Origin: Bugula neritina
Lineage: Eukaryota; Bryozoa; Gymnolaemata; Cheilostomatida; Bugulidae
NCBI GenBank assembly: GCA_964035545.1
Contig: OZ037765.1
Location: forward strand, 32,549,004 to 32,613,003
Reading direction: 5' to 3'
DNA length: 64,000 nucleotides
Shown here: in pieces, positions 755 through 42,057 of the stretch
How positions within the stretch are numbered: position 1 is the stretch's first letter
Layout: every line of letters begins with the position of its first letter
Notes under the pieces: model-generated
Databases searched by the model: none
What the model saw: the letters and a program-made list of their open reading frames with translations, nothing else
Told to the model about the DNA's origin: nothing
Translations under genes and position numbers: made by a program

Positions 755-8888
<8,134 letters not shown>

Positions 8889-14961: not shown

Positions 14962-17900
14962 ATGTCAATGGATGTTATTCCAGCAAAATACAAGGTCTGG
15001 TTCCGGCATTCTGGAGAGCCTGCAATTAGCCAACCTTGGCATGATAACGAAACTAGGCTTTACACTAAGGAAGAGCTGATAAATAAAATTGAAGGCCATA
15101 CAATTACCCACATGATAATAGATGGGGATGTACCAACTCACCTTAATCTTCTAATTCCACACTTGAGTCATCTGGCTGTCAAAAAAATCAAGTCTGCAAA
15201 CACCCTCATAAAGTAAGGTTTATAGCTTGCAATTTGCAGTCTCTTGATGAGACATTTGTATTGTCATACTCTGATTAGTCTTCTTTTCAAAGTTGGGTTT
15301 TCTAAATATTGTAGGTAGATGAAAATAGTATTGTTCATCCTTGATTACAGCTTTTTTCTACAAAATAGCAACTAAACCTTGAAAAAAAATTCCTTCACAT
15401 TCTAGGACTAATTTTGTTCTATAATGCATCTTTGATTTTCTTTTAAAACTTCATGTAAAAATAATGTGACTACTAAGACCATACATAATAAAATTATTAT
15501 TTGACATAGTTATGAATCTTGTTCACCCTACATTCCTGCAGTTCATTCCGATCACGCGATGTTTTATATGTCTATCACGTCTGTTATAATACTTTTCAGT
15601 CTAAAATATTTAGTGTTACGCCTATATTTAGTACATTTACATGTAAAATATATTTTTTTATAATTTAATCAGTTAGAGCATAAACTGAAAATATTTAACC
15701 TTTCGGAAACTTTTTTGGGTTTTTTTAATGACTACAAAAACCATAAAGGAATATTGACATTTACTCAAAGCAGCTCTGCAATAGGTAACCAATTATGCAA
15801 TTTATTCGAAACTGTATAGTAGCTGCTGCAAGTAAAATTTTTGACTAGTTTTATGTTGTTTGAAAGTAAGTTTTTTACAGGAACTCTAATTAGCCCATTG
15901 ACTTAAAACTAAAATTATGACAATTTAAAAAATTGACGGGTATATATATATATTTTCTTAATTCTTAGTTTTACCATTTAAGGCATACAATAGCCTTCAG
16001 TGTACCATTGAAATGGCTGGTTTCTAAGACAATATATTCAAGTATCGTCATAATATGCAACAGCTCAGTATATATGTGTTTCCCAGATAGTGAGTGCTAG
16101 GATTAAATTATTGATTATTTTATTCTCCTAGTTTTTATGCCACTCAATATACTCAGTCTCTGTTGCTTTTGACTGCTGAGTTTTTAAAGTAAAATGAAGG
16201 TTGCTTTGAGAATGTACTTTTATTTGCTATTGTTTTTGCTTCATGTTCAAGTTTTTGTTAGCATAACTGGAATATGTAGAGGTATAAATATATTATTATA
16301 CTCAGTCATTTGATGCTTTTTCAGCTCTAACATTTTACATGTGGTGTAGGTTTGAGCTTTCTCAGAATATGGAGAAACCTAGTGATTTTATTGTCTGTCC
16401 TAACCCAGGCATCGCATTATATTATAATATAAAAGTGTGATATTTATCAAAGTGTATAGACGTTATTTTACCACAGTATGTTTTTGTTGAACCACCTGGA
16501 CAGGCGTATGTCTGAGGGTTTATCTGTATGCTATGTTTACAGCATATCTTCACTGAGGAATCTTGAGGTGTTGAATATCTCAGGAAATAACCTGTCTGAA
16601 GGTCTACCTGACGATGTATTCACATCCTTGCTATCATTGAGAGAGTTGAACATGTGGAACTGTAGACTGGAGACTTTACCAAACAGGTATGTGAGTTGGG
16701 TTTAAGGGTTGCATGACAAGCATTTGTGAAACGCATGCATTTTTTAGTATAACTCATGTACCCCTCAACGATTGGTTAAATAGCTCATTTCTTGAGCATG
16801 CTCTTAGGTCTTATGGGGTCTACAGGCTACAGTAGGAACTGAACTGTGAACGTGAATACTTTCAACGTCACTTCCTACTTTTTGCTGGTCACACTACAGT
16901 TCACACTACAAACGCTGAATGCTAACTGTCTCTAGCCCCTCTCCCCCCAGTTAACTTTTAACTAATAGGAATGCCGTAGCTTAGTCTCTGCTTTGCCTAC
17001 AGCAGCCAAAAATTAAATTTAGCGCAATTTATTGAGATTTACTAGCATAATTCAATAAGATTTACTAGCTATTTTTATCCTAATTTACTAGCTTCACTTA
17101 TATTCAAAATTACTAGCTTCATTTAATGAGATTTACTAGCTTTATTCAACCACATTCACTAGCATAACGAACTAAGTATGCTAATAAAATTCAGCCAAAT
17201 TAGAATAGCCAAATATGCTGATACAATTTTTAGCCAAATTTAGCTGCTAAATATTTATTTTCACAGCTAACTTTTATTAAGATTTGCATACGTAACTTCA
17301 TCATAATAATGCTAAGTAAAATAATATAGTTTTCGAATAACCAAATCAAATAATAATGCTCGCTAGTAGCACTTGGAATAAGTAAAAGCACTTAACCAAT
17401 CAGGGCATACCTGGCCAGTCAGTGGTTGGCTGAACGCATCGAGAAAAAACTGACGGTTGTGTTCAGAAATCAGACAGTTGTGACATCACAGAGTTTAATG
17501 CTTAGCCCCGAAAACCTTTCACAGTTCAGTTTCAACCATAGACTCCTTAAGTTTGTGAGATTAAAAAACTGGTTGTAAACATAAAATGTTGCTACATATT
17601 TTAGTATCCTACAGTTGAAAAATCTGGAGGTCTTAAATTTATCATGGAATAACCTATCTGAAGATCTACCTGACAACATATTCACATCCTTACTGCCATT
17701 AAGAAAATTGAACATGGAGTACTGTAAACTGCAAACTCTGCCAAGCAGGTATGTAGGTAGTATGTATACTAAATAATGAAATGAAAACATCATTGACTTC
17801 TGTACAAAACCTCAACATTATTAATTAATCAATTGGTGTTGGAGGTACTGTTGAGCCATGTTGGGGGGGGGGGGGGTATCGAACATACTTGAGTTATTTT

Positions 17901-20900
17901 GGGTCCTAATTTGTTGATATTTTCAGCACAACTTATTAAATACTTTCACTCTATGCTAGCCAAACCTTTTTGAATTTTGAGACTTTACAGCATTGTACTG
18001 GAGAGAATAGCAACTAGAAATACTAAGTTACTTAATGCCAGGAACACCATAGGCCAGTTACAAAACCCAGATGATAACAGCACAAATACCTGTGGGTGAT
18101 CACCCAAGTTAACTTATTTGTCAGTAGTTCATATTTTGTTCAATATTTGTGAGGTGATAGAAAAATATGCATATCATTTGAAAGCTGCATATGTTCTCTT
18201 TACAAGCGTGTTTTAAAAAATTAGATCAATTTGGTTTTTCCAGCTAGTACACTTTTGGGGGTCATTCCAGATAGAAGCTTTCCAGTTAGACGCTATTTAT
18301 TTATTTATTTTGGTACAATAATATATGTATTTTATGAGCAATTTATTTGAATTTTATTGAAATATACTGAGGTGAGGTGTGAGTAAGTGTGACTGTTGAG
18401 CATAATTCGGCATTATTAAATTTCCTTTAATTTTCAAATAAATTCCTTTGTTCTTTATTACCTTATTAATTTTACGTTTTCTGTACTTCTTGTTGTTTGA
18501 AAAAATATTTTAGGATAGGTATTTATTAAAGATAATGTCTATTATTAAGGTAATACTGTGTTTGTCCCTCACAATACTGTGAAAATTGTAATAATGTTAT
18601 TCCACATAATTCATATTAACTATTATTTTATTTTTAGCAATCAATATAAAAGTAATATAGGCATATTACTATATATATGTTCCAAAATAAAAAGTAGCAT
18701 CTAAGTGGGAAGTTTCTATCTGAGATGAAACCTAATTTTGAACCAATCTACTCAATTAAGAGTTGAGATAAAACTATTTTAGCACAAAACTTGCTCTGAA
18801 TCCAGCTTTTTTTGAATGAAATTCTTTGAAATTAAATTGGCGACACTGTAAAGGGCCATTAAGGATGTCGGATTCAAAGTTTGCAAAATTAAAACCTGTG
18901 TAATTTTTACTAAAATATTTCTATCTTAATGCTAAAATGAGTATATTGGTTCAAAATTGTAGAATTGAAAAACTAAAATCAGCTAACATTTTGAATTATT
19001 TTTCCAAAGAGAACATTTATAGTTTTCCAATGATATGCATATTGTCCAAACTTTGGTTAGACCCATAATTTCGATCACCATGTCATGCTAAATATCGTCC
19101 TTGGTATTCGAAATAAACCAACTGTTGATAAGGTCACTTCACCTCATTTAGTATACACTAAATAAAATCATAGTTCTATGAAAATTTAGCGGCTGATATG
19201 TATGCTTTTTGTTGTAAAATAATGAATTGTTAGCAAATAAATCCAAATGTTCAGGTATTTTTCAAATTTTTTCTCTGTCTCTTAATTGTTGAATGATTAG
19301 TAAAAACCCTACCGGTTACAGTAATGATTATTAATAATAATATGATGATAATTAATTAATAACAATGCATTCAGCTGTTGGGGTCTCAGAATTTTTTTAC
19401 ACCTTACAAGGCCTGCTAGTTGTGCTATAGCAATACACATGGTGAACAGAGTATTTCTTCCTGTATTAGTCAATGCTGTGCAATGAATGTATTCCCTAAT
19501 GTTGTTAGCATAAACTAGTTGTAAAAATTATTGTCCTGAAATCTTAAGTTTTTTATATGTGCATATTGTGTGGTGTGTTGCAGTATATCCCTACTAAAGA
19601 ATCTTGAGGTGTTAGACATATCCGGAAATAACCTAACTGAAGGTCTACCTGACAATATATTCACATCCTTACTATCATTGAGAGATTTAGACATTGGCTA
19701 CTGTGAATTGCCAACTCTACCAAACAGGTGTATATCAATTGTAGAAGATCAAATTAGACATTAGTCAATTTTATATTGAGACTTTGCCAAGTCATTTTTT
19801 ATACAGAGTGACAATGTTTTTATTAAGCTATTATTGAATCTGATATGTGTTATCAAGTGAAAGAAACCGTGAGCTTTTTTAATGTTTTTATTCATTGAAA
19901 TATAATTTAATTATAGTCATTGGTTGAGCCAATCATGGATTTTTTAATTTCTATTATCAATTTGGCAATGCTAAACGTGGCTAGTTAGATTCATTTGAAC
20001 TTTCATTTATTGCCATAATGTACATAAGCAAATTGTACTATTTTATGCTGTGAAGTGTGTGCATCTTTGTGTCATAACTTGTAGTTCCATTATTTTATAT
20101 AAATATTTTTGCAGGTTTTCACAATATTATAGAATAAATATTATACTATGTTTATCCAATATTGCAGCATATCTTCACTGAAGAATCTTGAGGTGTTGAA
20201 TATATCATGGAATAAGCTATCTAAAGGTCTACCTGACAATATATTCACATCCTTACTATCATTGAGAGAGTTGTACATGAGTTACTGTAAACTGCCAACT
20301 CTACCAAACGGGTGTGTATAAAGTAAAGCTAAACCATTTAGCCATTTTTCGATCATGTTGGCACTAGGCCTTGTTATAATAGACCATGTAAAACTCAGCC
20401 AATCAGCGAAGTGTACCAGGTCAATGTCTTACCATTGTAACTGATATAAAATCCTGCAAGTTCAATTGCAAAATGCATGCTTCTAAAAGCTAGTTGTGCA
20501 ACTTTTTTTTCATGCATTATTTAATTTCATATCTTAAATTGATGACTCTTGAAATGATTTTTTAAAATGTCTAAATTAAGTGTTTATAAAACGCAATTAA
20601 AAATTGCATGTCTAGAAAAATGACCTGGTACACTTTTGCAACTTAAGGCCAATTATTACATAACTGCCAGCTTAGTAGTTATTTGTTGTTGCAGCTTGAA
20701 TGGGTTATTGTTTAGCATTGGAAGCTTGCAGTAAACATCTGTGAATTTGGTACATGACTTTGATTGGCTGGTTTTTGAATGGCCCTTTAGTATATGCATC
20801 TGAATGCTGGGTAGTGTAGACTCAGCCTACATCTAGCTAATGTACAGTAGCCAATCCACAGTAGTATTACAAAATTTCTGTTTAACAAATGAAATATTCT

Positions 20901-23900: not shown

Positions 23901-26900
23901 TTTAGACATTTTAAAAAATCATTTCAAGAGTCATCAATTTAAGATATGAAATTAAATAATGCATGAAAAAAAAGTTGCACAACGAGCTTTTAGAAGCATG
24001 CATTTTGCAATTGAACTTGCAGAATTTTATATCAGTTACAATGGTAAGACATTGACCTGGTACACTTCGCTGATTGGCTGAGTTTTACATGGTCTATTGT
24101 AGAAATTTGAAATAATTTTTGACATGCCCTCAAAGTTATGAGGCTGACATAGTTGGAAAAGCTCCGAGTATAGAAATTCTAGATTTAATGCCCAGGATCA
24201 CATGCAATGAGTTCAGAGAAAACATTTAAAGACACCTCTAGTCTCTAATTCTGTTGATGTCCTGTGTGCAATCTTTGCTTAGTAAAAACTTTGTTCTTAA
24301 AAATAGTAGCTGAGTTACTATGACTATTAGTCTAGCTACGCCTTAGGGTTTCCTGTTGGAATATTAGTTCTATTTACTGCAATTATTATTTTAATTAGAA
24401 GAAAACTGCCAGGGAATGTTGGTTGAATTTCTGTTCTTTGCATATACATGGAATATGCATTTCTATATTTTTAAAATTACCTAGTGCTGTGTATTCAGCA
24501 GTGATTTCTGGGTGATTTTGTGTACAGTTTCAGTCAAAAGTGTAATTTTCTGTTCACTATTGTATAGTGAACAGAAAATTATACCTTGCATTATTTGACG
24601 GCATGTCTTTTTGTAACTGTACTCTATTCTCAACGAGTTGGCGTAGTTTTTGACCAATAAACCAATATACTTTTTCAATGCAATTTGCTGAGTTAGTATA
24701 CTGAGAGCAATTGAGCAATTTTGCTGCTGAGCCTAAAACAGGTGATACCAGTTTTATTATTTTTGAAGAACCTAGCATAATAAGGTACTTAATATAAGCT
24801 GTTCATATTACAAACCTGTTATTTGTTAGAATATATACACCATTCATGCTTTTTTGTTACAGCATATGTTCACTGAAGAATCTTGAGGTATTGAATATCT
24901 CAGGAAATAACCTGTCTGAAGGTCTACCTGAGAACATATTCACATCCTTACTATCATTGAGAGAGTTGAACATGAGTGTCTGTAGACTGGAAACTTTACC
25001 AAACAGGTGTGCTATGTTTTACATTAGAACACAACTACAGTGCTGTGAAAAAGTTTAAGGACACCTCCCTGTTTTCCATAATAGTAATGTTCCAAGCTAA
25101 TTTTAAAACATAACTGAAGCATTTCCATAAGCGTGGTGCCTATCAAAATGATCCTTAAGATCTCCTTATCTCATTCATATAGAATATAAGTGTCTCTTTT
25201 TACATCCTCCAAAAATTTGGGTGAAACAACAAGATACTATGCATATATGGGAATTATTCAATGTTCTCACAATTTGTGTGCACTGTATGACATCAGAATG
25301 TTTTACTCAAAATATAGAAAAATATTATATGGGGTTTGTTATACACCTTATAGCAGCATTGCAACACACAGTGCACTCAATTTTAGTATCAATATTTTGT
25401 TGGCCAGCCTTTATTCCTAATCAGAAGTCGACAGTGACTCGTACAGCTTCTCCAACTCATTTTCAGTCACGACATAATGCCAAGCATGAATTACAGACTC
25501 TGTGAGTGTCACCTTAGTTGTTGGCTTTTTTGAGAAGACTTTTTTACCCACTCTTGATCATAATTTTCTATAGGGTTCAAGTCAGGGCTTCGTGCTTGCC
25601 AGTTGAGCGTTGAGACCGTCTGCTTTTTTATCCACTCTTTAACACTCCTCGCCCAATGACATGGTGCATTGTCATCTTGAAATATGTAAATTACATTTGG
25701 AAAAAAAGGTTTTTATAATTGGAAGAAATTTAGCATTGAGATTAATATTTATATATTTTTGGGTACTAACATCATTCCAGAGCAAATACTGAGTTCACCT
25801 ACCATTTTGATGTTATACAATCCTAAAGCATAACACTGATTATAGGGTGCCTAATTGTTCTAAGTACACATTGGCGGCTATATTTCTCATACTGGTATCT
25901 TCTAACACAGTAGTTTTCAGGATGACTGTTCACATTAAATATGGATTCATCTAAAATAATTACTTTTTTTTCAAATCATTCACTGTCTAACTCCCATGCT
26001 CCCTGGCCCACCGTAAACGATTTTTTTGCTGCTTCTTGGTTGGTAGAAGCTTCTTCTTGCTTTGCGGCCATGTAAGCTATGGCTCAGCAATCTTACCTTA
26101 TCAGAAATGTCTAAGCTGGTGTTCTTGTTGATTCTGACCATTCCTTGCCAACTCAGGACTTGTTTTATGGCGATCCTTTTTGCTGATCCCAATGAGAACC
26201 TTGTAATCTCTAGGTGTGCTTATTTTTAGTCATCCACTTTCAGGTCCATCTGCTACACTGCCAGTCTTCATAAACTTCTTGATAATTTGATGTAAAGTTG
26301 TCTTTGCTTTGCCAACCTTTTCAGATATTTTCCTAATTGAATAACCTTTCTTATGCAAGAAAATTACTACAAACCTTGCTTTTGAAGTAAGATTTACACC
26401 TCTCATTTTGTCTATGTGCAGCAGCCAAGTGGTCACCATATAAAAGCTCACAACTGAAGTTGCGTTTATACCTCTGCTGAAAAAAGTACCGAGTTTAAGT
26501 TAATAATGCTTGTCAGGGCACTCCTTTATAGTCAAACTGAAACTCGTTGAAATCATATTGATGCGGTTGCTCACTTTCTGAAATTGAAATTTGACTCGCA
26601 TAATAGCTATTTGATGCCCTTTGTAAACGTCGTGAATTAGTGAAGCGGACAGCATAAAAGCGATAATTGAGAAGGCGTAGGCTATATATTTATAACCGTA
26701 TAAGTACGTTGTCTAATCGCCAAAGTAATAACTAAATAAAGATGTTTACAAGGAGTTATTACTCCTATTCTAAAATTGGCCGATTAAGTTATCACAGTAC
26801 AAAAATTTTTACGAGTGGCTTTTACAATGCAATGCAACTCGGTGAAATTTCAACCCGGTGAAATTTCAACCCGGTCAAATTGAAATTCTGACCGAAAATC

Positions 26901-29900
26901 GTGAAGGTATAAAGGCAACTTAAATAACAGATTTCAAATTACAAAGGGAAGTTATACTTTATGATAACATGATGCCATGCACAAAGTCAAATTTCACTAT
27001 TTAGTTTTTGTGGTAAAAAAGGATAAACTTTGGTTACATAAAAATACAGGAGTTGCGCTTTCCTAACTTCTTGTGTAGTTGGCCTGAAAATAGGTGGAAA
27101 ACATCACAACAGTAAGAATTAATAGGTGGAAGTTGTAGAACACATTCTAAGGGTCATTTTAATATATAGAACTTGCAGGAAAATATTAAGAACTTACAAG
27201 AAATGTCTATTAAACAAGATACATGGAAATTTCTGCAAGGGTCCTTCACATCACTGTATAATAGTAATCACTATATTCTTTATACGTGGCCTATTTATTG
27301 CTATTTCTGTTTTCAGTGGTGCAAACCTATCGACTCCTCCTCATTTTAAGTCAAATGGCCCATAGTCATAGGTCCCAATGTGACCAATCGAATTCAATCA
27401 AGCTAGGTTTTAGCTCAAAGACTCCACATATATTTTGGCCATTAGGTAAATGGTGGCTTCAGGGTAGTATTTTGGTTTTATAATAAGTGCCTTGAGTTGC
27501 TTAAGATAATGGCTTATTTACTGATGAGGTTTGGTTAGCTCGGCATCCTCAGCACTATAAGAACTGATACTCGCCATACAGTGCATATTCTCGCAGACTA
27601 AAATTTGCTCCATGAGTGGAAAAAGGTGTCCACTGTACGGAATGTAGCGTCAGTGAAATCCAAAAACTACTAGCTAATAATATTTGCGTTTAACTTTACT
27701 GCTCGCCTTGTCTCTTTGGCTACATGTCTGGGATAAATTAGGATTTCATTTTTAAATCCCACTCGCTTTCAATAAAACGCAATGGAATGTAGCACTAAAT
27801 TGAGAAAAGTGGGCTCGCTAAATAACTACCAGCCAATTAGGTGACTACGGCAGAAAATATTCGCATTTGTCGTTCAGAGCTACAAGTGCATGACATTCAG
27901 ATACAGTGGATACCTTTATCTACTTCCGTCTGTGAAAATACACACCGTGTGGCCCTAAGCTAATTGGCTTTCTGTTTGTGCACCAGAGAAGTGTTTCTAC
28001 TAAAAAGGTTTCTTCTTTTCTGTACTTTTCTCAGTAAAATATGTTATACTTGTATCCTATATTGCAGCATATCTTCACTGAAGAATGTTGAGGTGTTGAA
28101 TATATCAGAGAATAACCTATCTGAAGGTCTACCTGACAATATATTCACATCCTTACTATCATTGAGAGAGTTGAACATGGAAGACTGTAAACTCTCAGCT
28201 CTACCATACAGGTGTGAATAAATATAATATTGCCTTTTCATAATTGCAGAAATTTGAAATAGTTTTTGACATGCCCTCAAAGTTATGAAGCTGACATAGT
28301 TGGAAAAGCTCCGAGTATAGAAATTCTAGATTTAATGCCCAGGATCACATGCAATGAGTTCAGAGAAAACATTTAAAGACACCTCTAGTCTCTAATTCTG
28401 TTGATGTCCTGTGTGCAATCTTTGCTTAGTAAAAACTTTGTTCTTAAAAATAGTAGCTGAGTTACTATGACTATTAGTCTAGGCCTTAGGGTTTCCTATT
28501 AGAATATGAGTCCCATTTACTGCAGTTATTTTTTATTATTAGGCTGTGTGAGCTGGAAACACAGGTGTGCTGTTTTATAGATTGTAGAGTATTAAAATAA
28601 TACAATAAACATGCTTTACAAGCAATTGACTACAAAGCGCTATAAATTATTCACCATAGATATATTTGTAAGTTCATTCGCAAGTTACTATAATATGAGC
28701 ATCAACATGTTTTATTATGTTATAGCATGTCTTCTCTGAAGAATATCGAGATATTAGGCATATACTTTTCTCAGTAAAATGTGGTATACTTGTATCCTAT
28801 AAAACTCACGCAAGTTTATAGTCGCTATCCCTGTGAAAAACCCCTGATGGAAAGGGTTTTTGTTAAAGCGGGCTAAGGACTTGTTTAAATGAGGCACAGG
28901 AGCAATTATGACTGGATGCTCTTCCTAACATCACCAATGACCTCTGTCCGGACTCGAACACAGGACTCGAACACATGACCTTCGTGTTCACAAAGCAAAT
29001 GTTTTAACCCCTTGACCACGGCTGCTCCCTAACTTATACTTGTATCCTATATTACAGCATATCTTCACTGAAGAATGTTGAGGTGTTGAATATATCAGAG
29101 AATAACCTATCTGAAGGTCTACCTGACAATATATTTTCATCCTTCCAGTTGCTGAGAGAGTTGAACGTGGGAAACTGTGAACTGTTAACTCTACCAAATA
29201 GGTATGTGTTGCTGTTTTTATTATGCTCTTGTAAATGCTGTTTTTCTAATATATAATATAATGCTCTTGTATCTAATTAATTGTTAGCAATATATTATAA
29301 GTATAGATAGATAATATGGACTTGTGCTGGTTTTTGTAAATGTAAATGTTTGCATAAAACGTGAACAGTAAGAAAACAACTCAAAAAAGTCCCTTATGCC
29401 TATTCTAAACCTAAAAACTGGTTTGGGGAAAGTGGCTTAACAATAAACCAACCATTTCTTGGCAGAAATATGAGCAAAAAGTTTAATTGCATATTTAATG
29501 CTAAAAAATTAAAAGTTTTATAAACGCTATTATTACTGTCTCCATATTAGCTATCGGACAGTACCCTTTTGCTTCTTTTTCTTTGCACTCTTTTTTTCCT
29601 TAACTCAAGACTTTTTTCTTTCTGTATTAACTGTTAGAAGCAATAAACTGACAACAACAACAACTTATGAGCGTGAACAATAAGACAATGAAAAGCATCA
29701 AGCTCATTTAATATGATTCTTGTAGTTATGTATATACCATGACTGCCTTTGTCCTTTTTATCTAAAATACTAGCTAAATTATAAATGCGTTTTTCAATCA
29801 TCTCACTTTAATTAGTGCACACCAAGAAACTTTTACCCAAAACTATTAATTATTCTTCAAATTATAGAATAATTTGTATTTAGATGTAAGTTGCATATAC

Positions 29901-32900: not shown

Positions 32901-35900
32901 TAAAAAACGGAGTTGTTGATGGTGCTTTATGCTCTTAATTTTTTTAGCTTAGCAGCTTATATAAAATTAATAGCTGCTCAGCAAATTATTCACTAACCTA
33001 CAAGATTGTTAGCAACAAATAACTCACGGGAGCAATTTTTATTTGTCGAGTAAATTCAATTTAAGTGTCCTGTTTTTACTTTCTGCGATCTATAATTTTA
33101 TAGAATTGAGCTTTCTCAATCATTGTAATGGAAGTCAAAGTTTTTTCATCTGAAAATGTGGCCACCGTGATTCTTCACTTTGCTTATAAGTAACTAACAA
33201 TAAGTTGTCATTTTTATTAGCACACAAAAATTTAGCAAGCAGTCTTTTTCTATTTCTCAGATCGATCGTCGTTATGTTATCTGTCTACATACCCACAAAT
33301 TTTAGTTGCTTCGTTCCAGGAGCCTTTGTGTAATCTAGAATAAAATATATGACACTTGTTGCAGTGATCTGAGATTACTGGTGTGTAATTGTAATTTCGG
33401 CAGCAACTATCAAAATTAAATATTTATATAACTCTAAATTGAAAGACTGCACCATTGACTTTTTTCATTCTATCTGCATAGCTAAATGAAGTATAGTCTG
33501 CTAAGTATTGGCCTGCTTTAACGGTTCTATTTCAATTGTAGAATACAGAATCTACAGAAGTTAGAGAACCTGAACATATCAAGGAATCAATTCACCAGTT
33601 TACCATCTCCTGTGTACACATTAAGTAGTCTCCGAGTCATGAACATATTGTACAATCACTCCCTGACATCCTTAGATCCTGAGATACTACAGCTAACTCA
33701 ACTTCATACACTGGATGTATCTGGTTGTAATGCTCTCACATCTCCTCCACGAGAAGTATGTGAGAGCGGAGTAGATGCTGTGAGACAATACTACACAGAC
33801 TTGGCTAAAGGAGCTGGTAGAAGTCTTCCATTTGCTACTATAGCTGTGCTGGGTAATACGATGGCTGGGAAGACCAGTCTAATCAGAACATTACAGAGTT
33901 CTGACAAAAAGAGAGTTCTGACTAACAGAGGGCCAGATGCTGTGAGGGATGAGACAACAAAGGTGTTTAATGTTGAAGAGGTGGAAGTGGATGGTACAGT
34001 ACTCCGTGTCATTGATATGGGAGGCCAGGAGGTCTACCATATCACCTATCAACTGACACTGAGACAGAATTGTATTCCAGTCATAGTAGTCAACATGGAA
34101 CAGTATGATGAGATTTCAAAAGAATCAACACACAGAGAAGCTGTTAGAAGATTAGCCTTTGATTACATGTCTCACCTCTACCTGGCTAACCCAACTCTGG
34201 GTGCTCCAAAACTTATCTTCACACATACAGATAAGTTTCAAAATGCAGAATTTCAGAAGCTTCGAAAGAACTTTCTAGAAACTTCCAATCAACTGTGTGA
34301 GGAAATGATTAGAGAAGAGAAAGCACTGGGTGGAGAATTTGCTCAAATCAAACATTTCAGTGAATCAGCTGAAGGAGTTTTTCTTGGTGAGGACATTTAT
34401 GAGGTTGGGAAAGATGATAAGTATGAAGTGTTTGACCTGATCAAGGAGTCTCTTCTTCAAAGCAGTCAACATTTTGTGAAACCGTTACCTCTGGTTTGGG
34501 AAGAAGTGAATGAAAAAGTGCTGTCTATTCCCTCTGTGTACAGTACCTTTGATGAGGTACTGAAATATGTGCAAACAGAACTTCAACACATTGAGTCAAG
34601 TCAGCTGGACATAATCCTCACATACATGCATAACTGCGGCAAAGTCTTGTGGTATAAAAATATCAGCTCTCTCCGGCCATACATATTCTACAAGATTTCA
34701 GAAGTTACCAAACTTCTCTGTGTCTTGTATCACCACGATTCTAACATATGGCAGAGTAGAGTTGACAAGTTCCAGCCGTATTACTCAAAGCCCGAAATGC
34801 GTTTTGAGAAACAGGACTTTGAGGAATCTGTTAATTGTTTCACAGACACTGGTTTGATGATGCAATCTCTTCTTGTTTATTTGATTCAAAATGAAACAAT
34901 ATTTCACAGTTCTGAGAATGTTGAAGTTGCTATCCGCTTGCTCCAGACATTCCAGTTGTTGTACGGTCCTATACATGGTGGCTCTGCAAAGCCATGTTTT
35001 GTTGTACCACAGTTTGCCAGCGATTACTACAGAACCTCATCCTCTCAATCACAAAATCTGCTCCTTCAAGTTGGAACGCAGTTCAATGGTCTAGCCCTGC
35101 CACGCTATGTCTACCAGCAAATGACGGTTGGCTTGTTGGAGTTGTTTCCAGACGAGTTTGCTGTGATGGAAGTGAAGAGAAATGGAGCCAATGTCTATCA
35201 AGATGGAATCTACACGCAGCTCGTACACGACTATAAATCTAGAAAAGTGTTACTCCAGGTGTCATCTAATGCTGCCAACATCAGCAGAATGTGGGAGAGA
35301 CTTATCACCACCAACAACAACATCCTTAGACATGTTCTAAAAACTTGGACAGCAAGTAGAGCAGTCACTACAAGCTACTGTGCTCACTGTCTTCTCCTAC
35401 AAGTTCCTTGTCCTAAAAAAATGCTCAATCCTCCATGGTGTCTTCGTTCCTTGAAACATCCTACACCAAATACCAGGCTGTGCAGTGGATCTTCAATGAC
35501 ATTGTGTAACGATGAGGCGATTCCCAGTGCTCTACTTCACCCTTGTGAGTTGATATTTTCTGCTTTTACTGTGATATCTTTTGAATAATTGACTTCTCTT
35601 TACTTTTTGTTTTGAATTAATTTTATCTTTTACATTAATAGGCGAGTCTTTGTCCGAGAGCGAAGTTGCAACGATACACGAGTTTGTTGACCATCTTGTG
35701 AAAGTTGGGAATACTCGAAATGAATTACGTGTTTCAGGTATGTAGCTTGATACTAAGTGAGCAATAGTAATTGTGTCATTCACAACTAAGAGTACGAAAC
35801 AGATAATACAAATTATTTCTAACTGCAATATCTTATAAAGTCCTTTCTGATAATCATAAATCGTCTGTTAAATTTATAATGATATTTTCTCAGATCTAAA

Positions 35901-38900
35901 ATGTCTCTGTTTTGTGTTAATGCACTTTCATGTAAACTGTTATTTTGTAAATGTTGATTTAGAACTAGATTTTATTCTTGTTTAGATGAGGCTTTGGCAG
36001 AAGCAGAAACTGAGAAGTTGGGCAATCAACTAAAATCGGAAAGAGAACAAAACACTCCATCCGGTAGTTCCTAAGTATTTGTAGGCGTCTTCTAGCAGTA
36101 TTTTTTATATTTTTAGCACTTGCTGAAATATAGGCCTACAAAAATATATTATTATAATGTAAAGCTAAACTAAATTCTTTCTAATTTTTTTATTCTTAGG
36201 TTTCTATTACTATGCTGCTACTGCTGCTGCTACTATTACCACTACCACTAATCCTTAGAAATGTAGTGTATAGCTTGCGTGTGTGCCAATTTGCTTCAGT
36301 CGGAAAGTACTTCGACTTGTTTATTTAGGAAGCAGTCATATAAAACTAATTCAAGTGAAATCAAAATCGAAGCAAGTGTTAACAAGTTTTTGATTAGCAA
36401 AACTGTATCAAATATCTAAAATTAAATTGAATAAAATTTTGAAATTACTATAAAATAAAGCTTGAAAAACTTTTATAGGATTTGTGCAATATTTTTGAAA
36501 AGTGTTCATATTGAAACTTTTTGATCTAGTAAAGGAAAACACAGATGGCCTAAATACATACAAAATATGTAATTATGTCATTTGAATGCATGAATCAAGG
36601 TAATTAATATCTGCATAACAATATTGTTTAACAAATTTAAAAATAACATAGCTAAATGAAATTACCATTATATCTCTCAGAATTGTAATGTAATAGTAAA
36701 CTGCCAAAATGGCTCTTTTGGCTCTCGTACACTGAAGGCTCAGTTGAGTGATGTACTGGCCCAAGAAATCTTATTACTTCACGTGACTGTTAATGTGCCG
36801 GTATGATGTAAACATGTAAACAAAGTAGCATGGCTGTGCCATCTACAAGGAGTAGGATTTAGTTTGCTTGAGATTGTATCTGGACCTGTCAAAATTTGTA
36901 TTTTGGTTGTCAAACAATAAATGCTCAGAGCTAGAAAGAAGTTCATCTATTTCTGTGTATTTGTAGGATCTTCTTCAGTTATCGATGATGAGTTGAGTGA
37001 TCTTTCAGATGATGAGTTCATGGAGCAGAGTGATACCTTACATAGACAGAGTGTAAGGCCAACCTCAAACCCCAGAATTCAGAGCCTGTTTTATGATACT
37101 GAAAAGGTATAAAGAAAAATATTTTGAGAGTTCATAACAATTCTTAAAAAACTTTTACACCTTAACAATCATCAGTGGACAATTCAATTTCGATAAGTGG
37201 ATTTTTTGCATCATGAAAGCAACCTGCTCAGATCATAGTTCTGCTATCACTTTTTGGCTCATGTTCAATCTTCAATAATTACTTTCTTTATCAACTAATT
37301 TACTTCAGTCATGTTATGTTTTAATAAATAGGAATATTTATTGTCGCAGACTGAATGATAATTGCAATGTGAAACCTGTTACATCATAAGTTGTAAGTAT
37401 AGTTGCAAGTTGTAAGTAGCAAGTTGCAAGACGCAAGTGTGGAGATAAGTGAACAAATGCTAGGTTTTTATACCAGTTTAAAAGGTTAGCTATTGTGTAG
37501 TAACCATATTGAGTGTGTAGAAAGCATAATAATATAGCTGGCATAGCTGTGGTGATACATGAAAAGCTATACCTAATGAATTAGGGAAAAGCTCTCCCAG
37601 CTTATGTAAAGTCCCAACCAGTCATTTAAGTAAAAGCTATGATGTAATCCTACTACATAGGTTCTCATCAATATGATTTCAATTAATTTCAGTGAAGCTA
37701 TAAAAGGGTGCTTATCTGGGTTGAATGAACTCTACCTCGGTGCTTCAATTTCTATTATTTATATTTGAATGAAACCTTTGTCTTTCATTTATTCATCATA
37801 GCTGCAAGCGATTTATCAAAAACAGTTCTGGTGAATTGCGAAGTTATCATTTCCAATTTGTACAGAAAGCTGAAATTATCCTGAAAGAATCTTCGTTTTT
37901 CAACTCCGTTTGTCAAATAGTCTGCCTATATGAGCTTAACACTGCATAACCTACTAGATAAAAATGGCACAGGTAGCAATGGCACAAATGGCAAAGCAAG
38001 TAAAAATGGCACATTTTCAATATTAGGGTTTGGAGTAATGGTTGTGGGTTTCAAATGGGGGGTTTAGGTTTGGGGAAAATTCACCATCAGTGTGTCATTT
38101 TAACTACTTTTCCATTTGCGTCATTATTACCTGTGCCATTTTATGCTGTCGGGCCAACCCCAACAAGACAGCTTGATAATGAGGTTGCTGAGAGTTCACT
38201 CCATCGGTGCTGTAAAGGTTCAAACCAGCTTGTTAGTTTCTTCTGCTACTCAGTGGATTGTGCTTGTCGTAAGCAGCCTGTTTGTTTACCAATCTCCGGG
38301 CTTTTATTCACTCAACAGCAGCTATGATCTTTTATTTCCCTAATTGTCGGCAATCAATTCAATTTTAATTTGCATAAGATATTATGGTTACTATTGATGT
38401 TCTTCAATTGATAGATATTAGCTGGAAAGTTTATGCAGCATAGCCAATAATAATTTGTATTGGCAATTTAGCCATTGACACAAATTTTCACTGAGTATGC
38501 ATTAGTAAGAAAACTTTCAAGTACATTTTTTTCAATGTGTCTAAAATAAGATTTCTTCATCTTTCTTTTCTGTGCAGGTGTTCAAGATGTCTCCCATAAG
38601 AGGTAGAGCCTTGATAATCAATAACGCATCTTTTTCTGATCAGCATCGTGGTCCCGAGCTAGATGTTATTAATATAACAGACATGCTCAAACAGTTCAAG
38701 TTCCAAGTTTCAATGTTTGACGACATCACAGCTGAGGTGAAATTAACTCTTGTGAAAGTTTTTTTTAAAATGGCAACTTGTTAGATTTTATTCACTCAAT
38801 GTCTTATTTTTCCAAGGCCTATTCAATCCCATTAATGCAAATGGAAAGCTGCTACTGTAAATTATTTTCTAGTGCTACAGATTTTTTGCAGTAATAGAGC

Positions 38901-40695
38901 TACTTTTAGCTACTTATTATTGTTTAAATCAAAGTGACTTTAAAGTGCAATAATTGTACCTTACAAATATGTTGTGCTCTAAGCTGCACGGATAATGAAT
39001 GCTCTAGGTCACTTATACTCGTTCAAAACATCCAACTCATTTAAGAAATAATGGCATGGTTCGTTGTGTTAACAGTTACATGTATATAATCTTTAACATA
39101 AAATCCAATTGTCCCAGGTTTAAAGATCAAGTAAAAATCTTCCTTATCAGAACTAAATATTGTAGCAAAGCTTTAATGAACCTTATTCTTTTATTTAAAA
39201 ACATCCACCAATGAGGAATGTTTTGTTGTTTTGAAATAATAGCCAGGTTTTGTATCTTCCCAATACCAAGGTTTCTCTGATTATTTTCAACAGGATATTC
39301 TCCGTGTGATCAGGAATGAGGTTGAGGATGACCGCCATGAATACTATGGCACATTCTGGCTATGTATTATGGCTCACGGGTCTGGTGATGATTTTGTCTG
39401 TGGTTCTGATGGTGCTCTTGTTAGTCTAAAAAGTGTCTATGCTTTACTTTCACCATTCAACTTTCCTGGTATGGCTGGGAAACCAAAGGTGGTAGTTATT
39501 GAGACATATAAAGGAGGTAAGTGGTTGGAGAACTCATGATAGCACGTATACTGCTCTCACATTTTGTGCACATCTAATTTTACTGTATCCTGCGTCATAT
39601 TTGGGTTTTATAGTTGGTGCCCCAGGCAATATTTCATCTCACATGGGACACACCCTTGTAAATTTTCACATATTATATTGTATGGGAGGGAGGGTCTATT
39701 ATTTTCTTTCTATTGACATTTCTTGTCCCATTTTAATTTTTATTTTTGGAATCCAAATTCCTTCATCAGCGCTACATAGGAACTCTACAATTCCTGCCTT
39801 TGAATTTGTTTAACTTTATTTACACATGTTCTCCTTTTAAGTGGAACCAGTAAACAAGTCTAGTGGCCTACATTTTTTTAATCTGCATGTAATTTAATTC
39901 CTATCAAATGTCAGGCCCAGAAAACTACTAAACATTTAGTGTCAATTAACAGGGAAGTACAAGTTAAGGCATAAGTGTTGAAAGCTTTTTTTTAAATTTG
40001 GATACAAAAGGTTCTTTGCATACATAGTTTGATAATCTATTTGCATATATAATTTTGAAATATTTAGAGTTTCCAGATTCAGAAGAGAAATCTGTTGAGC
40101 CATCAGCGGTCAAAGTCCCTTCCAGCGAAACTCCATCTTTCCCTCCAATCACACAGTTGGAATGTGATGATTTGCTGATAATCACATGCAAGTCACATAG
40201 ACATGATATTGTTTACTTTCTAATTATCATCATATAATTTTTCCTAACAATATTTTGTAACAGAAATATATTTCTTGTTCATAAAACTATGATTGCAGCT
40301 TTTTGTAATGGCAGCTTTAGTGTTAATGGAACTGTTTTACTTTATAATTTTCTGGTCACCTACCATTGTTTCAACTCTAGACTTTTGCCACATATTTATG
40401 TTGTAGCTGGTCTATCAAATAGAGATTTCAATCATAGCTCCACGCTAATCAACTGCCTAGTTCGAACTATGTACAGGCATGCTTGTCACAGAGATATGCA
40501 TGAAATCTTCAAGATTGTAAGTATAGGTGGTAGCGGTCTCCCAAGGCTGAAAATAATTGTGTAAATGTGTTTATACTGTGGTAATCGAACATCTCAGATT
40601 GACCAAATCTACTCAATTTTTGTATGCTTTCTTACACAAAACTCCCGGATTGTGATCAACTGCTACTACTACTACTGCTACTACTACTGCTACTG

Positions 40696-40727
<32 letters not shown>

Positions 40728-42057
40728 GCTACTATTGCTACTACTACTACTATTGCTACTACTACTACTGCTACTGCTACTACTACTACTACTACTACTG
40801 CTACTATTGCTGCTACTACTACTACTGCTACTGCTACTACTACTGCTACTACTACTGCTACTACTACTACTACTACTACTACTGCCACTACTAATACTAC
40901 TACCACTGCTGCCAGTACCACTACTGCCAGTACTATTACTGGCTATTAAAGGCATATTTCAATTCCAGATATAAGCAAGTACCTACAAGTTTGCCACGGC
41001 ATTACTGTGACAAACTGACATTGCTAAATTGTTGCATTCTAGTATACTTTATTACTCACTTTGTTGCTTTTTACTGTACAATAAATGGAGTTATATAGAA
41101 AGTTTTAATAAAAATTGGAATATTATAAACTTACAGTACTTATATGTGGCAGTTGACATAGTTATTAAAGTGCAAGAGACTCGGCAAATACTGGCAACAC
41201 CCTAGGGAAATGGGGAAATATTATCTGGTGTCTTATCTGGCAGCAATTTGTTAAATTGTTGCAGGCAGTTTTTATTTTCACAATTTGTTGGTTTGAGTCA
41301 TTTGTTAGTATTTCAGAGTAGCTTTAATATTACGGCTAAAAGCAACACCACTTTGTTTCATAAAATTACAGTGGGGTAGGCTAGCAAAGTTTAGCTCAAT
41401 GAGTAATATTATTTTTTCAGAGTGCTTTCTGCTACTTAGATTTTGGCAAATATCAACTTCAAAGCAGAAAAGCAGTTAAATGGTTATTTAGCCCTGCTCA
41501 CGCAAAACAACCAAGTATAATAGATTTCATTTTAGGTAGAACACTTGCAAAAAGACAAAATAAAAGTATTTACATGTATATTTGGTCTCTGTCCTTTCTT
41601 CTGAGCATTGTTTAGAACTGGGTGGGGTTGATAAATTTTGTATTACAAGCAACATAATTGAATTAATACATAATGGCACAGCTATAAATGTACCAGTCCA
41701 AGCATGACTTAGTAATAATTATCAAATAATGCCTACAGATATTTACTATACTATACTCTTAGTTTGTCACAAATAAGGTCTATAATGGCTGACCTCTACT
41801 GTACAGTCTAGTACTAGTACCAGTAGCTGCACCTAATTGGGAAAACAAATCATGTTGGCTAACAATTTACTTAATTTCCTGATGAATTTTAGGTGGAGCA
41901 CCGGGTGAGAGAATATTGGATTAAAACCCGAAAAATCGGACAGTCAACATTGATTATAGACACGCTGACAAGTTTTAGGAAGCTTTACCTGTTTCCTGGA
42001 TATGATGGCTCCCGCAAGCATGGACTTGGGTATACTTCTCGTAGACGAGGCTCATAA
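14962..42057 (+). CDS. LRR-ROC-COR GTPase fused to a caspase-like (pseudocaspase) domain
   Basis: Model of about 1450 residues. Exons: 14962-15212; seven 144-nt LRR exons (16543-16686, 17605-17748, 19584-19727, 20168-20311, 24863-25006, 28068-28211, 29058-29201); 33542-35544; 35642-35737; 35986-36063; 36967-37106; 38578-38736; 39294-39516; 40068-40187; 40407-40516; 41893-42057. All phases match. Order: N-terminal domain (1-83), 14 LRRs (84-419), further LRRs and ROC-COR (420-1087), acidic linker (1088-1192), caspase p20/p10 (1193-1450). The ROC keeps GNTMAGKTS (524-532), DMGGQ (578-582) and THTDK (647-651). The caspase keeps the His (MAHGS, H1273) and an S1-type Arg (R1216), but the QACRG-equivalent reads ETYKG with Tyr1317 in place of Cys. 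Inference: a GTP-switched scaffold carrying an inactive caspase fold. The start is tentative, because the frame is open upstream for about 110 nt and a short extra 5' exon is possible. The 40.2-40.4 kb splice has two options (1450 or 1460 residues). Confidence 0.85.
17040..17170. repeat. Degenerate tandem repeat around ATTTACTAGC
   Basis: The decamer (A)TTTACTAGC or a close variant recurs about six times at irregular 25-30 bp spacing in an LRR intron. It is probably a decayed minisatellite. Confidence 0.6.
17863..17876 (+). repeat. G14 homopolymer
   Basis: A run of 14 G in otherwise AT-rich intron sequence, seen directly. It may also be a site of sequencing or assembly length error. Confidence 0.85.
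20381..21424 (+). repeat. Left inverted arm of the 3.7-kb transposon
   Basis: About 1044 bp, matching 23041-24095 in reverse complement with scattered single-base differences. Identical reading frames appear on opposite strands in the two arms; I regard them as non-coding. Confidence 0.88.
21547..21800 (+). pseudogene. Possible N-terminal transposase exon remnant
   Basis: An open stretch rich in Ser, Glu and Lys (pieces such as SSTESADIEQQ and KKRSAHSIDRLK) that ends at a GTAAGT-type donor. Its low-complexity, linker-like composition fits the region between the DNA-binding and DDE domains of such transposases. Assignment rests mainly on position inside the element. Confidence 0.45.
22799..23068 (+). 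pseudogene. DDE_Tnp_4 transposase fragment
   Basis: The frame encodes LMKLRQGLQFQILASLF, then FPTGEKL, then IIDCTEISICKP. This matches the start of the DDE_Tnp_4 fold of ISL2EU/Harbinger-like transposases; the IIDxTEI motif holds the first catalytic Asp. The frame ends at HHW-stop just inside the right arm, so the second Asp and the Glu are missing. Confidence 0.75.
23041..24095 (-). repeat. Right inverted arm of the 3.7-kb transposon
   Basis: Reverse-complement partner of 20381-21424. It begins within the transposase frame just after the CKPQS residues, which suggests that an internal inverted duplication replaced the transposase 3' part. Confidence 0.88.
24108..24360 (+). repeat. Intron segment duplicated at 28245-28505
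   Basis: About 250 bp starting AGAAATTTGAAAT is nearly identical to 28245-28505, which follows another LRR exon. In this copy the transposon lies between the exon and the segment. It supports duplication of an exon-plus-intron unit. Confidence 0.9.
24543..24581. repeat. Perfect 18-bp-stem hairpin
   Basis: 24543-24560 is the exact reverse complement of 24564-24581, with a 3-nt loop. The stem contains TTTTCTGTTCACTAT. It is intronic and I see no known function. Confidence 0.85.
25037..26455 (-). mobile_element. Decayed Tc1-like transposon
   Basis: One end reads CAGTGCTGTGAAAAAGTTT, a typical Tc1-type terminus. On the minus strand there is a transposase in pieces: an N-terminal helix-turn-helix (ARFVVIFLHKKGYSIRKISE), a DESIFNV second-Asp motif near 25950, and the DNAPCHWARSVKEW...SPDLNPIEN block at about 25570-25680. 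Frameshifts and stops separate them. I could not find the opposite terminal repeat, so the right boundary is approximate. Confidence 0.82.
25427..26448 (-). pseudogene. Tc1-like transposase pseudogene
   Basis: It starts MRGVNLTSK and shows the two helix-turn-helix regions, then DESIF and SPDLNPIEN. At least two frameshifts or stops are needed to join them (after GPESG, and before the DESIF block). It lies in the intron between the fifth and sixth LRR exons, antisense to the host gene. Confidence 0.82.
26838..26885 (+). repeat. Short tandem repeat, CCCGGTGAAATTTCAA unit
   Basis: The unit CGGTGAAATTTCAACC occurs twice in tandem with a partial third copy. Intronic. Confidence 0.75.
28245..28505 (+). 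repeat. Intron segment duplicated from or to 24108-24360
   Basis: Second copy of the duplicated intron block, lying directly after the 28068-28211 LRR exon. It lacks the transposon and so serves as the empty-site reference. Confidence 0.9.
28726..28762 (+). pseudogene. Truncated LRR exon remnant
   Basis: It follows a TTATAG acceptor and reads like the first 37 nt of an LRR exon (MSSLKNIEIL), then breaks into sequence copied from upstream of the 28068 exon (CTTTTCTCAGTAAAAT). There is no donor, so it is not a usable exon. Confidence 0.75.
28801..29034 (-). mobile_element. tRNA-derived SINE with 16-bp target duplication
   Basis: The element is flanked by direct repeats TATACTTGTATCCTAT at 28785-28800 and 29035-29050. 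On the minus strand the head is tRNA-like: an A-box (TGGTCAAGGGGTT, about 29007-29019) and a B-box (GTGTTCGAGTCC, about 28963-28975), with a second B-box-like copy just after. The body contains TTAGGAAGAGCATCCAG, like the conserved core I recall from several metazoan SINEs (Nin-DC type, from memory). It is inserted just before the acceptor of the last LRR exon. Confidence 0.85.
29886..31318. repeat. Inverted-repeat element, arms about 140-155 bp
   Basis: 29890-30027 matches 31163-31318 in reverse complement with moderate divergence; shared pieces include TGCTTGCGTTTTATTGGCAG and TTTTGCAATCGGC. It is probably a non-autonomous DNA transposon. I see no transposase between the arms. Confidence 0.65.
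31322..32366. mobile_element. Harbinger-like non-autonomous element with TTA target duplication
   Basis: The terminal inverted repeats are TAGCTTATTCACAC (left) and GTGTGAATAAGCTA (right), flanked by TTA at 31319-31321 and 32367-32369. The 3-bp TTA duplication fits PIF/Harbinger. There is no coding frame, so it is a 1045-bp non-autonomous copy, sitting next to the inverted-repeat element on its left. Confidence 0.75.
33542..35544 (+). other. ROC-COR exon of the large ROCO gene
   Basis: A 2003-nt exon from a TTCAATTGTAG acceptor to a CCTT|GTGAGT donor. It encodes terminal LRRs (LENLNISRNQFTSLP), then a ROC domain with P-loop GNTMAGKTS, switch-II DMGGQ and G4 THTDK, then COR. All core GTPase motifs look intact, unlike the minus-strand paralogue. 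Confidence 0.92.
37332..37608 (-). repeat. Dispersed repeat, inverted copy at 63543-63789
   Basis: About 275 bp that matches the right edge of the window in reverse complement (GCAGACTGA, AGTTGCAAG, GGGAAAAGCT and CCCAGCTTATGTAAAGT). A transposable-element origin is likely; the class is not determined. Confidence 0.75.
37958..38143. mobile_element. Short MITE with ATAAAATGGCACAGGTA termini
   Basis: The left end reads ATAAAAATGGCACAGGTA and the right end is its near-complement TACCTGTGCCATTTTAT. The element is about 186 bp and intronic, between the linker and the caspase exons. Confidence 0.65.
38578..42057 (+). other. Caspase-like domain exons (p20 and p10), catalytic Cys replaced by Tyr
   Basis: Five exons: 38578-38736 (RGRALIINN; HRGPELDV carries the S1-type Arg), 39294-39516 (MAHGSGDDFVCGSDG with the catalytic His; KPKVVVIETYKGG at the QACRG site), 40068-40187, 40407-40516 (GLSNRDF, like the SYRN Arg loop) and 41893-42057 (p10 end, ending RRGS). 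His-Tyr spacing is 44 residues, close to the usual His-Cys spacing. A linker rich in Glu, Ser and Pro lies between p20 and p10. The 40.2-40.4 kb intron is GC-AG, or alternatively GT-AG (end 40191, start 40381). Confidence 0.85.
40663..40925. repeat. (CTA/CTG)n triplet array
   Basis: About 260 bp of CTA, CTG and ATT triplets in the intron between the two p10 exons of the pseudocaspase. Poly-Leu, poly-Ser and poly-Val frames on both strands are artefacts. Confidence 0.95.

Follow-up and report, generated by a model that had tools for sequence, protein, structure and literature searches.

The stretch of DNA analysed here (the window, 64,000 nucleotides) is positions 32549004-32613003 of chromosome 1 of Bugula neritina, whose genome measures 216 Mb. 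From splice sites and homology we rebuilt a gene of 17 exons that begins at 14962 and ends at 42057 of the window, with consistent intron phases and a single open frame of 1450 residues followed by a stop codon; these are the same in-frame exons and the same ends that the initial annotation had claimed. The domain order of the protein model is LRR-ROC-COR-caspase. When the 1450 residues were compared with Pfam, LRRs, Roc (E 8.5e-7, above the cut-off) and Peptidase_C14 (E 1.5e-23) were recognised, and COR-A gave a weak match (E 0.01) below the cut-off.

All exons lie on the plus strand. Exon 1 (14962..15212) holds the putative start codon and a conserved N-terminal cap ("VWFRHSGEP...ITHMIIDGD") in an open frame that ends at a phase-2 donor. 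In a two-sequence comparison it was 35% identical (E 4e-9) to the N-terminus of P0001, a protein of the bryozoan Watersipora, and a small search returned the Watersipora proteins P0010 (E 5e-6), P0001 (3.5e-5), P0055 (0.004) and, weakly, P0011 (0.35). Seven LRR exons follow, each of 144 nt with phase 2 on both sides, at 16543..16686 (with consensus splice sites), 17605..17748, 19584..19727, 20168..20311, 24863..25006, 28068..28211 and 29058..29201; their pairwise DNA identity is 72-91%, the exon at 24863 being 91% identical to that at 16543. The last LRRs, the ROC GTPase and COR are encoded by one exon of 2003 nt (33542..35544; Pfam Roc E 3e-7). COR-A matched the open frame of this exon with E 0.0019, below the Pfam cut-off, and several paralogues score above it. 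The motifs GNTMAGKT, DMGGQ and THTD, which we take to be the P-loop and further G motifs, can be read in the ROC domain, and the C-terminus of COR is rich in Cys and His.

Three small exons connect COR to the caspase. Exon 10 (35642..35737, phase 1-1) resembles by eye the "[CY]..LTD.E" that comes after COR in Watersipora proteins, exon 11 (35986..36063, phase 1-1) has its best relative at E 0.67 (locus L027) and is weakly supported, and exon 12 (36967..37106) is an acidic linker ("DDELSDLSDDE...LFYDTEK") whose profile finds matches at the paralogous loci and in the Watersipora fusions. The caspase occupies five exons: exon 13 (38578..38736), an open frame with the start of p20 ("VFKM...RGRALIINN...", Peptidase_C14 E 8.3e-9); exon 14 (39294..39516, Peptidase_C14 E 4.7e-7), where the catalytic His is kept and Tyr stands at the Cys position; exon 15 (40068..40187), with the p20-p10 linker and the start of p10 ("ECDDLLII"); exon 16 (40407..40516), in whose "LSNRD" the Arg lines up with that of the S1 pocket; and exon 17 (41893..42057), with the end of p10 ("RKLYLFPGY") and the stop codon. 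Exon 15 had to be ended at a GC donor (T|GCAAGT), and a few residues are missing there; a phase-2 donor combined with an acceptor upstream of 40407 is likewise in frame. The last intron contains a long trinucleotide-repeat tract (CTA/CTG-like, 40660-40930). Downstream of the gene lies a retroelement (46272-50723, plus strand) with a frame of 1484 codons encoding reverse transcriptase, RNase H and integrase, and with a SCAN match just below the cut-off.

Part of another ROCO-caspase gene, on the minus strand, falls within the window, with its ROC-COR exon at 2332..4029 (profile E 1.9e-75). The caspase exons of this gene (e1, e2, e4 and e5) lie to the left of the window, in locus L135, and keep the Cys (QACSG). 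Two putative LRR exons of 147 nt, at 4737-4883 and 5541-5687, emerged from a pattern scan.

The fusion in the window does not stand alone. Its ROC-COR exon has at least 75 matches in the genome, with identities of 48-100%, and 73 of these are free of in-frame stops. Genome-wide lists, which are lower bounds, comprise 96 ROC-COR exons and 127 copies of caspase exon 2, and 92 of the 96 listed ROC-COR exons have a listed caspase exon 2 downstream on the same strand within 12 kb, at a median distance of 1.9 kb (four pairs are 6-12 kb apart, the others nearer). As controls, a caspase exon was found upstream of two of the 96 ROC-COR exons and on the opposite strand of none, which rules out the chance adjacency of two genes. 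The window gene is thus one of about 92 such loci in this genome. An earlier, narrower count from two protein-family searches had given a listed downstream caspase match for 51 of 58 ROC-COR exons. Unpaired in the lists are 35 of the 127 caspase exons, which lack an upstream ROC-COR exon, and four of the 96 ROC-COR exons, which lack a caspase exon.

Two side observations concern the ROC-COR matches themselves. At C1:33884506-33886254 (minus strand) a ROC-COR exon 85% identical to that of the window lies inside one open frame that runs for 2363 codons and may be an LRR array with few introns; the open frames around the other 74 matches span 550-753 codons. The best genome matches to the Roc profile fall on small contigs (C58, C90 and C99) with several in-frame TAA and TAG codons and no TGA, the pattern to be expected if the sample contained ciliate DNA.

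We fetched 20 loci in full, all chosen because a caspase match was already listed for them, and restricted the scan to the strand of ROC-COR, so that this set speaks to the order of the exons and not to their frequency. ROC-COR, linker and caspase exons 1 and 2 were present in that order at all 20 loci, and both p10 exons (e4 and e5) were also present at 17. The acidic linker profile matched at 19 of the 20 with E below 0.05, and at L027 with E 0.47. At three loci (L012, L016 and L017) the ROC-COR match is split in two, and these family members look damaged.

An arrangement that could resemble a fusion is an LRR-ROC-COR gene followed by a separate caspase gene, the two amplified together as a conserved tandem. 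Read-through past exon 12 of the window meets an immediate stop (GTA TAA), and three Watersipora models and the draft B. neritina protein P0066 end soon past the linker exon, as such a pair of genes would predict. Against it, the linker exon sits between the two parts at all 20 fetched loci; splice sites read by eye in the window and in L015 join the linker exon to the caspase exon in phase 0, and in both the caspase exon opens at its acceptor with "[VI][FY]KM" and has no upstream sequence of its own. In addition, 11 Watersipora models cross the junction, and the draft B. neritina protein P0062 joins the linker to caspase exon 2. We therefore consider two separate genes very improbable; the ROCO-caspase fusion is real, as a gene model, and is a member of a large family.

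The initial annotation had proposed a search for Roc and Peptidase_C14 on a single chain. Our database searches returned proteins of Watersipora subatra, and of the 17 ROCO proteins of this species that we examined, 11 combine ROC-COR, linker and caspase in a single chain, if P0014, whose last strand is cut short, is included. The profile of linker exon 12 matched in all 11, and the precomputed Pfam list gives LRR domains for 10 of them. The joining of LRRs, ROC-COR and caspase in one gene model, as originally read, is therefore borne out by an order that recurs across the B. neritina genome and in the independently predicted proteins of a second bryozoan. According to the part of the Watersipora genome paper that we consulted, its Ensembl annotation derives mainly from transcript alignment (PMC12902671); the proteins used here carry NCBI names. 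In the protein search, in which about 8000 length-limited candidates were scored, the matches with a named organism came from Watersipora and Bugula neritina only.

Six of the 17 Watersipora models are without a complete caspase. P0055, P0058 and P0059 end at most 40 residues past the linker exon, P0045 and P0065 end earlier, and P0050 has the first caspase exon only. The initial annotation had named transcripts ending within the linker as a sign against fusion, and this finds a partial echo in the three of 17 models that stop just past the linker exon, while 11 of 17 span the junction. P0055 and P0059 share the C-terminus "NTD[VA]AST" directly past the linker exon, which may be a shared transcript end without the caspase. 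Of the two draft B. neritina proteins, P0062 contains COR and the linker and goes on into part of caspase exon 2, skipping exon 1, whereas P0066 terminates after the linker. A caspase-less isoform beside the fusion is possible. P0015 (1869 residues) continues past the ROCO-caspase part with a match to fn3 and a hydrophobic stretch at the C-terminus; two genes may have been merged in this model, or the protein may be a membrane form.

As a structural comparison, the AlphaFold chain of Watersipora P0013 was searched against known structures. It matched LRRK1 (8e05, E 8e-19), RocCOR (3dpu, E 4.5e-15) and LRRK2, and also, with E values from 7e-13 to 5e-11 and TM scores by target of 0.67-0.83, caspase-9, -1, -3, -7, -8 and -11 and CED-3. 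The model has a mean pLDDT of 63 and a pTM of 0.52, with much of the domains in the 70s to 80s and low values in the linkers.

What the caspase of the window copy can do is a separate matter. In sequence the spliced domain is closest to chains of caspase-1, CED-3 and caspase-4; it matched 159 PDB sequences at E 0.001, with caspase-1 the best. The catalytic His is kept (CAC, 39375-39377), but the position of the catalytic Cys is occupied by Tyr (TAT, 39507-39509) in "IETYKG"; the corresponding residues of relatives are, for example, QACSG, EACSG or VACRS. The complete p20/p10 caspase fold of the initial annotation thus stands as a fold, and its catalytic Cys is absent. By alignment, the Arg residues of "HRGPELD" and "LSNRD", candidates for the S1 pocket, are kept and the Gln of QACRG is replaced by Glu; the roles of these pocket residues, including the Arg of "LSNRD", are those we presume from caspase structures. 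The window copy reads as a pseudo-caspase, and its protein is unlikely to be a protease itself because the catalytic Cys is missing. The assembly, tzBugNeri2.1, has a quality value of 53.7 according to the section of its description available to us (PMC11480708), which makes a base error at the Tyr codon unlikely.

Loss of the Cys is not confined to the window. Among the 127 listed copies of caspase exon 2, the Cys column reads Cys in 112, Ser in 10, and Ala, Leu and Tyr (the window) in one each, with two unreadable; the His column reads His in 124, Leu in one (L090, a Cys copy) and Gln in one, and one copy is too short. By contrast with the window copy, the 10 tabulated Watersipora proteins have both His and Cys. 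When pairing was judged by eye, all the non-Cys copies (10 Ser, and the Ala, Leu and Tyr copies) adjoin ROC-COR exons, making 13 of the 92 pairs, with one of the Ser copies at 7.5 kb. The differing replacement residues suggest that the Cys was lost more than once.

These losses bear on whether the window gene is a decaying pseudogene, with the Tyr, the GC donor and the missing exon-15 residues as early damage and an inert protein as the outcome. The window copy is the only one of 127 with Tyr, the donor of exon 15 is non-canonical, and the ROC-COR frame is broken in three of the 20 fetched paralogues. Moreover, the protein distance (pN) of the window caspase exon is 0.24-0.27, compared with 0.02-0.20 among its nearest relatives; this faster protein change than in those relatives is possibly decay. 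Nevertheless, all 17 exons are open in spite of the great divergence of the window caspase from all other copies, and the variety of Cys substitutes elsewhere, with all 10 Ser copies paired with ROC-COR, looks like the retention of dead caspases. The dN/dS of the ROC-COR exon is 0.17-0.26 against six paralogues, and from these values of about 0.2 we infer that this exon is under constraint, which counts against plain decay. On balance we hold an inert pseudogene to be unlikely, while allowing it an appreciable chance, and read the window gene as probably a maintained copy with a Cys-less caspase.

Comparison of the two halves of the gene revealed a mosaic. The ROC-COR exon of the window is 81-89% identical to those of 24 other copies, whereas caspase exon 2 of the same copies is only 33-48% identical. 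Against L020, L024, L018 and L026, the ROC-COR protein is 81-85% identical (dS 0.35-0.55), while the caspase is 39-48% identical with saturated dS; the same contrast holds for L018 against L024 (ROC-COR 88%, caspase 43%). The caspase exons nearest to that of the window are those of L029, L030 and L031 (55-56% identical, all with Cys), two of which adjoin ROC-COR exons that are 49-50% identical to the window's and one of which has no listed ROC-COR exon. The caspase halves fall into close sets, 86-94% identical, that cross the ROC-COR similarities. In the ROC-COR tree, L024 groups with L018 and L026 (support 100/99), and in the caspase tree, which has 131 columns only and long branches, it groups with L020 (84/77). 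In topology tests the ROC-COR data rejected a grouping of L020, L021, L024 and L028, which are 86-93% alike in the caspase (AU p 0.004), and the caspase data rejected a grouping of seven loci whose ROC-COR similarity is 74% or more (p 0.024). Both sets were named from pairwise identity, and neither forms a supported clade even in the tree built from the half that defined it. As far as comparison of the sequences goes, the two halves have different histories, with recombination or conversion having acted on each of them separately.

The same contrast could arise without any exchange of cassettes, if gene conversion had homogenised the ROC-COR exon and the caspase exons were simply old. The DNA similarity to four paralogues is consistent with this, as it covers the ROC-COR exon (33539-35546) and ends at the exon borders, with little beyond them (a 41-base match in caspase exon 14 to L020 and one intron stretch, 37959-38142, to L026). 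The caspase sets that cut across the ROC-COR similarities argue the other way, as do the ROC-COR exons, only 49-50% identical, beside two of the three nearest caspases. We rate conversion without exchange a serious contender with somewhat under an even chance. Conversion of ROC-COR could itself be the route to the mosaics, and the data are compatible with either half having moved.

We propose that these genes form a multigene bryozoan family of single-chain sensor-switch-effectors in which the window copy partners active paralogues and does not itself cleave, a reading we consider probable. The family layout would be an N-terminal cap, LRRs encoded by repeatable 144-nt phase-2 exons, ROC-COR, an acidic linker and an animal-type caspase. 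The LRRs may bind a ligand or mask the protein, and the nucleotide state of ROC-COR would set whether it is a monomer or a dimer. Initiator caspases are activated by proximity. One bacterial Roco protein is mainly a dimer when GDP is bound and a monomer when GTP is bound, according to the portion of the study available to us (PMC5714945). Since initiator caspases need proximity and the dimer state of this bacterial Roco follows the nucleotide, nucleotide-controlled dimerisation is our proposed trigger: it would bring two caspase domains together and activate them, as for initiator caspases, and the active caspase would then act on substrates or on its own linker, with the acidic "SDLSD.E" as a putative hinge or cleavage point. 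The window copy, with its GTPase motifs and caspase fold kept and its Cys replaced by Tyr, would occupy a dimer without cutting, as a decoy or modulator, perhaps in heterodimers with active paralogues in the manner of c-FLIP and caspase-8.

An immune or cell-death role is plausible, judged from the parts and the expansion of the family. The fusion could instead serve a role other than immunity, as a death switch in development or in zooid regression (brown body), or in colony allorecognition. Bryozoans are colonial and recycle their zooids, and nothing in this analysis ties the ROCO-caspase family to microbes. A recognition repertoire is the closer likeness for a family with so many copies, duplicated in clusters, with LRR exons that can be repeated and with mosaic caspases, though such traits do not separate pathogens from colony mates; we regard a non-immune role as possible without favouring it. 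We also put forward, tentatively, a broader picture: a repertoire specific to the cheilostome lineage, of about 100 single-chain sensors, with ROC-COR in place of the NLR ATPase and wired to a caspase. Its LRR exons would repeat, its caspase cassettes would pass from one ROC-COR chassis to another, and caspases inactivated on repeated occasions would be decoys that tune mixed dimers, together making a combinatorial recognition and death system directed at pathogens or at colony self and non-self.

Taken together, the observation is stronger than was claimed for the family and weaker for the window copy. The architecture is a new arrangement of known parts, and what should surprise specialists is the family-wide mix of Cys-bearing and Cys-less caspases and mosaic halves. 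Because of LRRK2 and Parkinson's disease, the output that ROCO GTPases switch on is a question of broad interest. In the bryozoan family the effector is part of the ROCO chain and is an enzyme whose chemistry is known; in the paralogues that keep the Cys, the relation between GTP state, dimerisation and output could therefore be read by an ordinary caspase assay. If the proposal is true, it adds a further route joining LRR sensing to caspases, beside the NACHT/NB-ARC receptors and adaptor-based inflammasomes, and the dead copies and mosaic genes bear on the evolution of such repertoires.

The initial annotation knew of no described ROCO-caspase fusion, and our search of open-licence full texts, a scope outside which most subscription papers and all bioRxiv preprints fall, likewise found no published description. 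In the accessible parts of two papers considered for a ROC-COR and caspase precedent (PMC7159879, PMC8195603), roco occurs only in the reference lists, and in those of a bivalve caspase paper Bugula is named only in a reference (PMC7836458). A Roco review describes LRR-RocCOR, kinase and DAPK groups, with no occurrence of "caspase" or "protease" in the main text available to us (PMC6337361). Vertebrate MFHAS1/MASL1 resembles the bryozoan proteins in having N-terminal LRRs followed by ROC-COR and no kinase, and several Watersipora relatives carry the NCBI name "MFHAS1 homolog"; however, MFHAS1 consists of LRRs and RocCOR only, as given in the same portion of that review (PMC6337361), whereas the bryozoan genes add a caspase, at about 92 paired loci. 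LRRK1, LRRK2 and DAPK1 likewise couple a central ROC-COR switch to an effector or adaptor domain within one chain, and the fold of P0013 matches LRRK1, but in them that domain is a kinase or a death domain (PMC6337361, same portion). The bacterial protein P0004 combines LRR-ROC-COR with a further enzymatic domain (PF01048) on one chain, but it is 23% identical over 38% of the query and has no PF00656 in its list. NACHT and NB-ARC, which define the inflammasome and NLR receptors, were absent among the 12 families of the Pfam scan of the window model, so that the window protein is at most an analogue of those receptors.

Initiator caspases and the pseudo-caspase c-FLIP have an animal-type p20/p10 domain, and they offer a parallel in the occurrence of Cys-bearing, active-looking copies and Cys-less copies in one genome. 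They differ in the recruitment part: Pfam recognised no CARD or DED on the window model, and LRR-ROC-COR therefore stands where other initiator caspases have their recruitment domain. Brown-algal ROCO genes provide another comparison, in which some carry the peptidase entry IPR009003, which we take to be of the trypsin type and not a caspase. As described in the part of the study we could draw on (PMC11378527), these proposed immune receptors have 72-nt phase-2 LRR exons that shuffle, and three of 111 genes have a C-terminal peptidase domain of that entry. The two systems share LRR exons of a single length in phase 2, many copies and, in one group, a C-terminal peptidase; they differ in that the 72-nt exon encodes one LRR and the 144-nt bryozoan exon two. 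By analogy, the 144-nt phase-2 LRR exons of the bryozoan genes appear as a striking parallel to the brown-algal exons.
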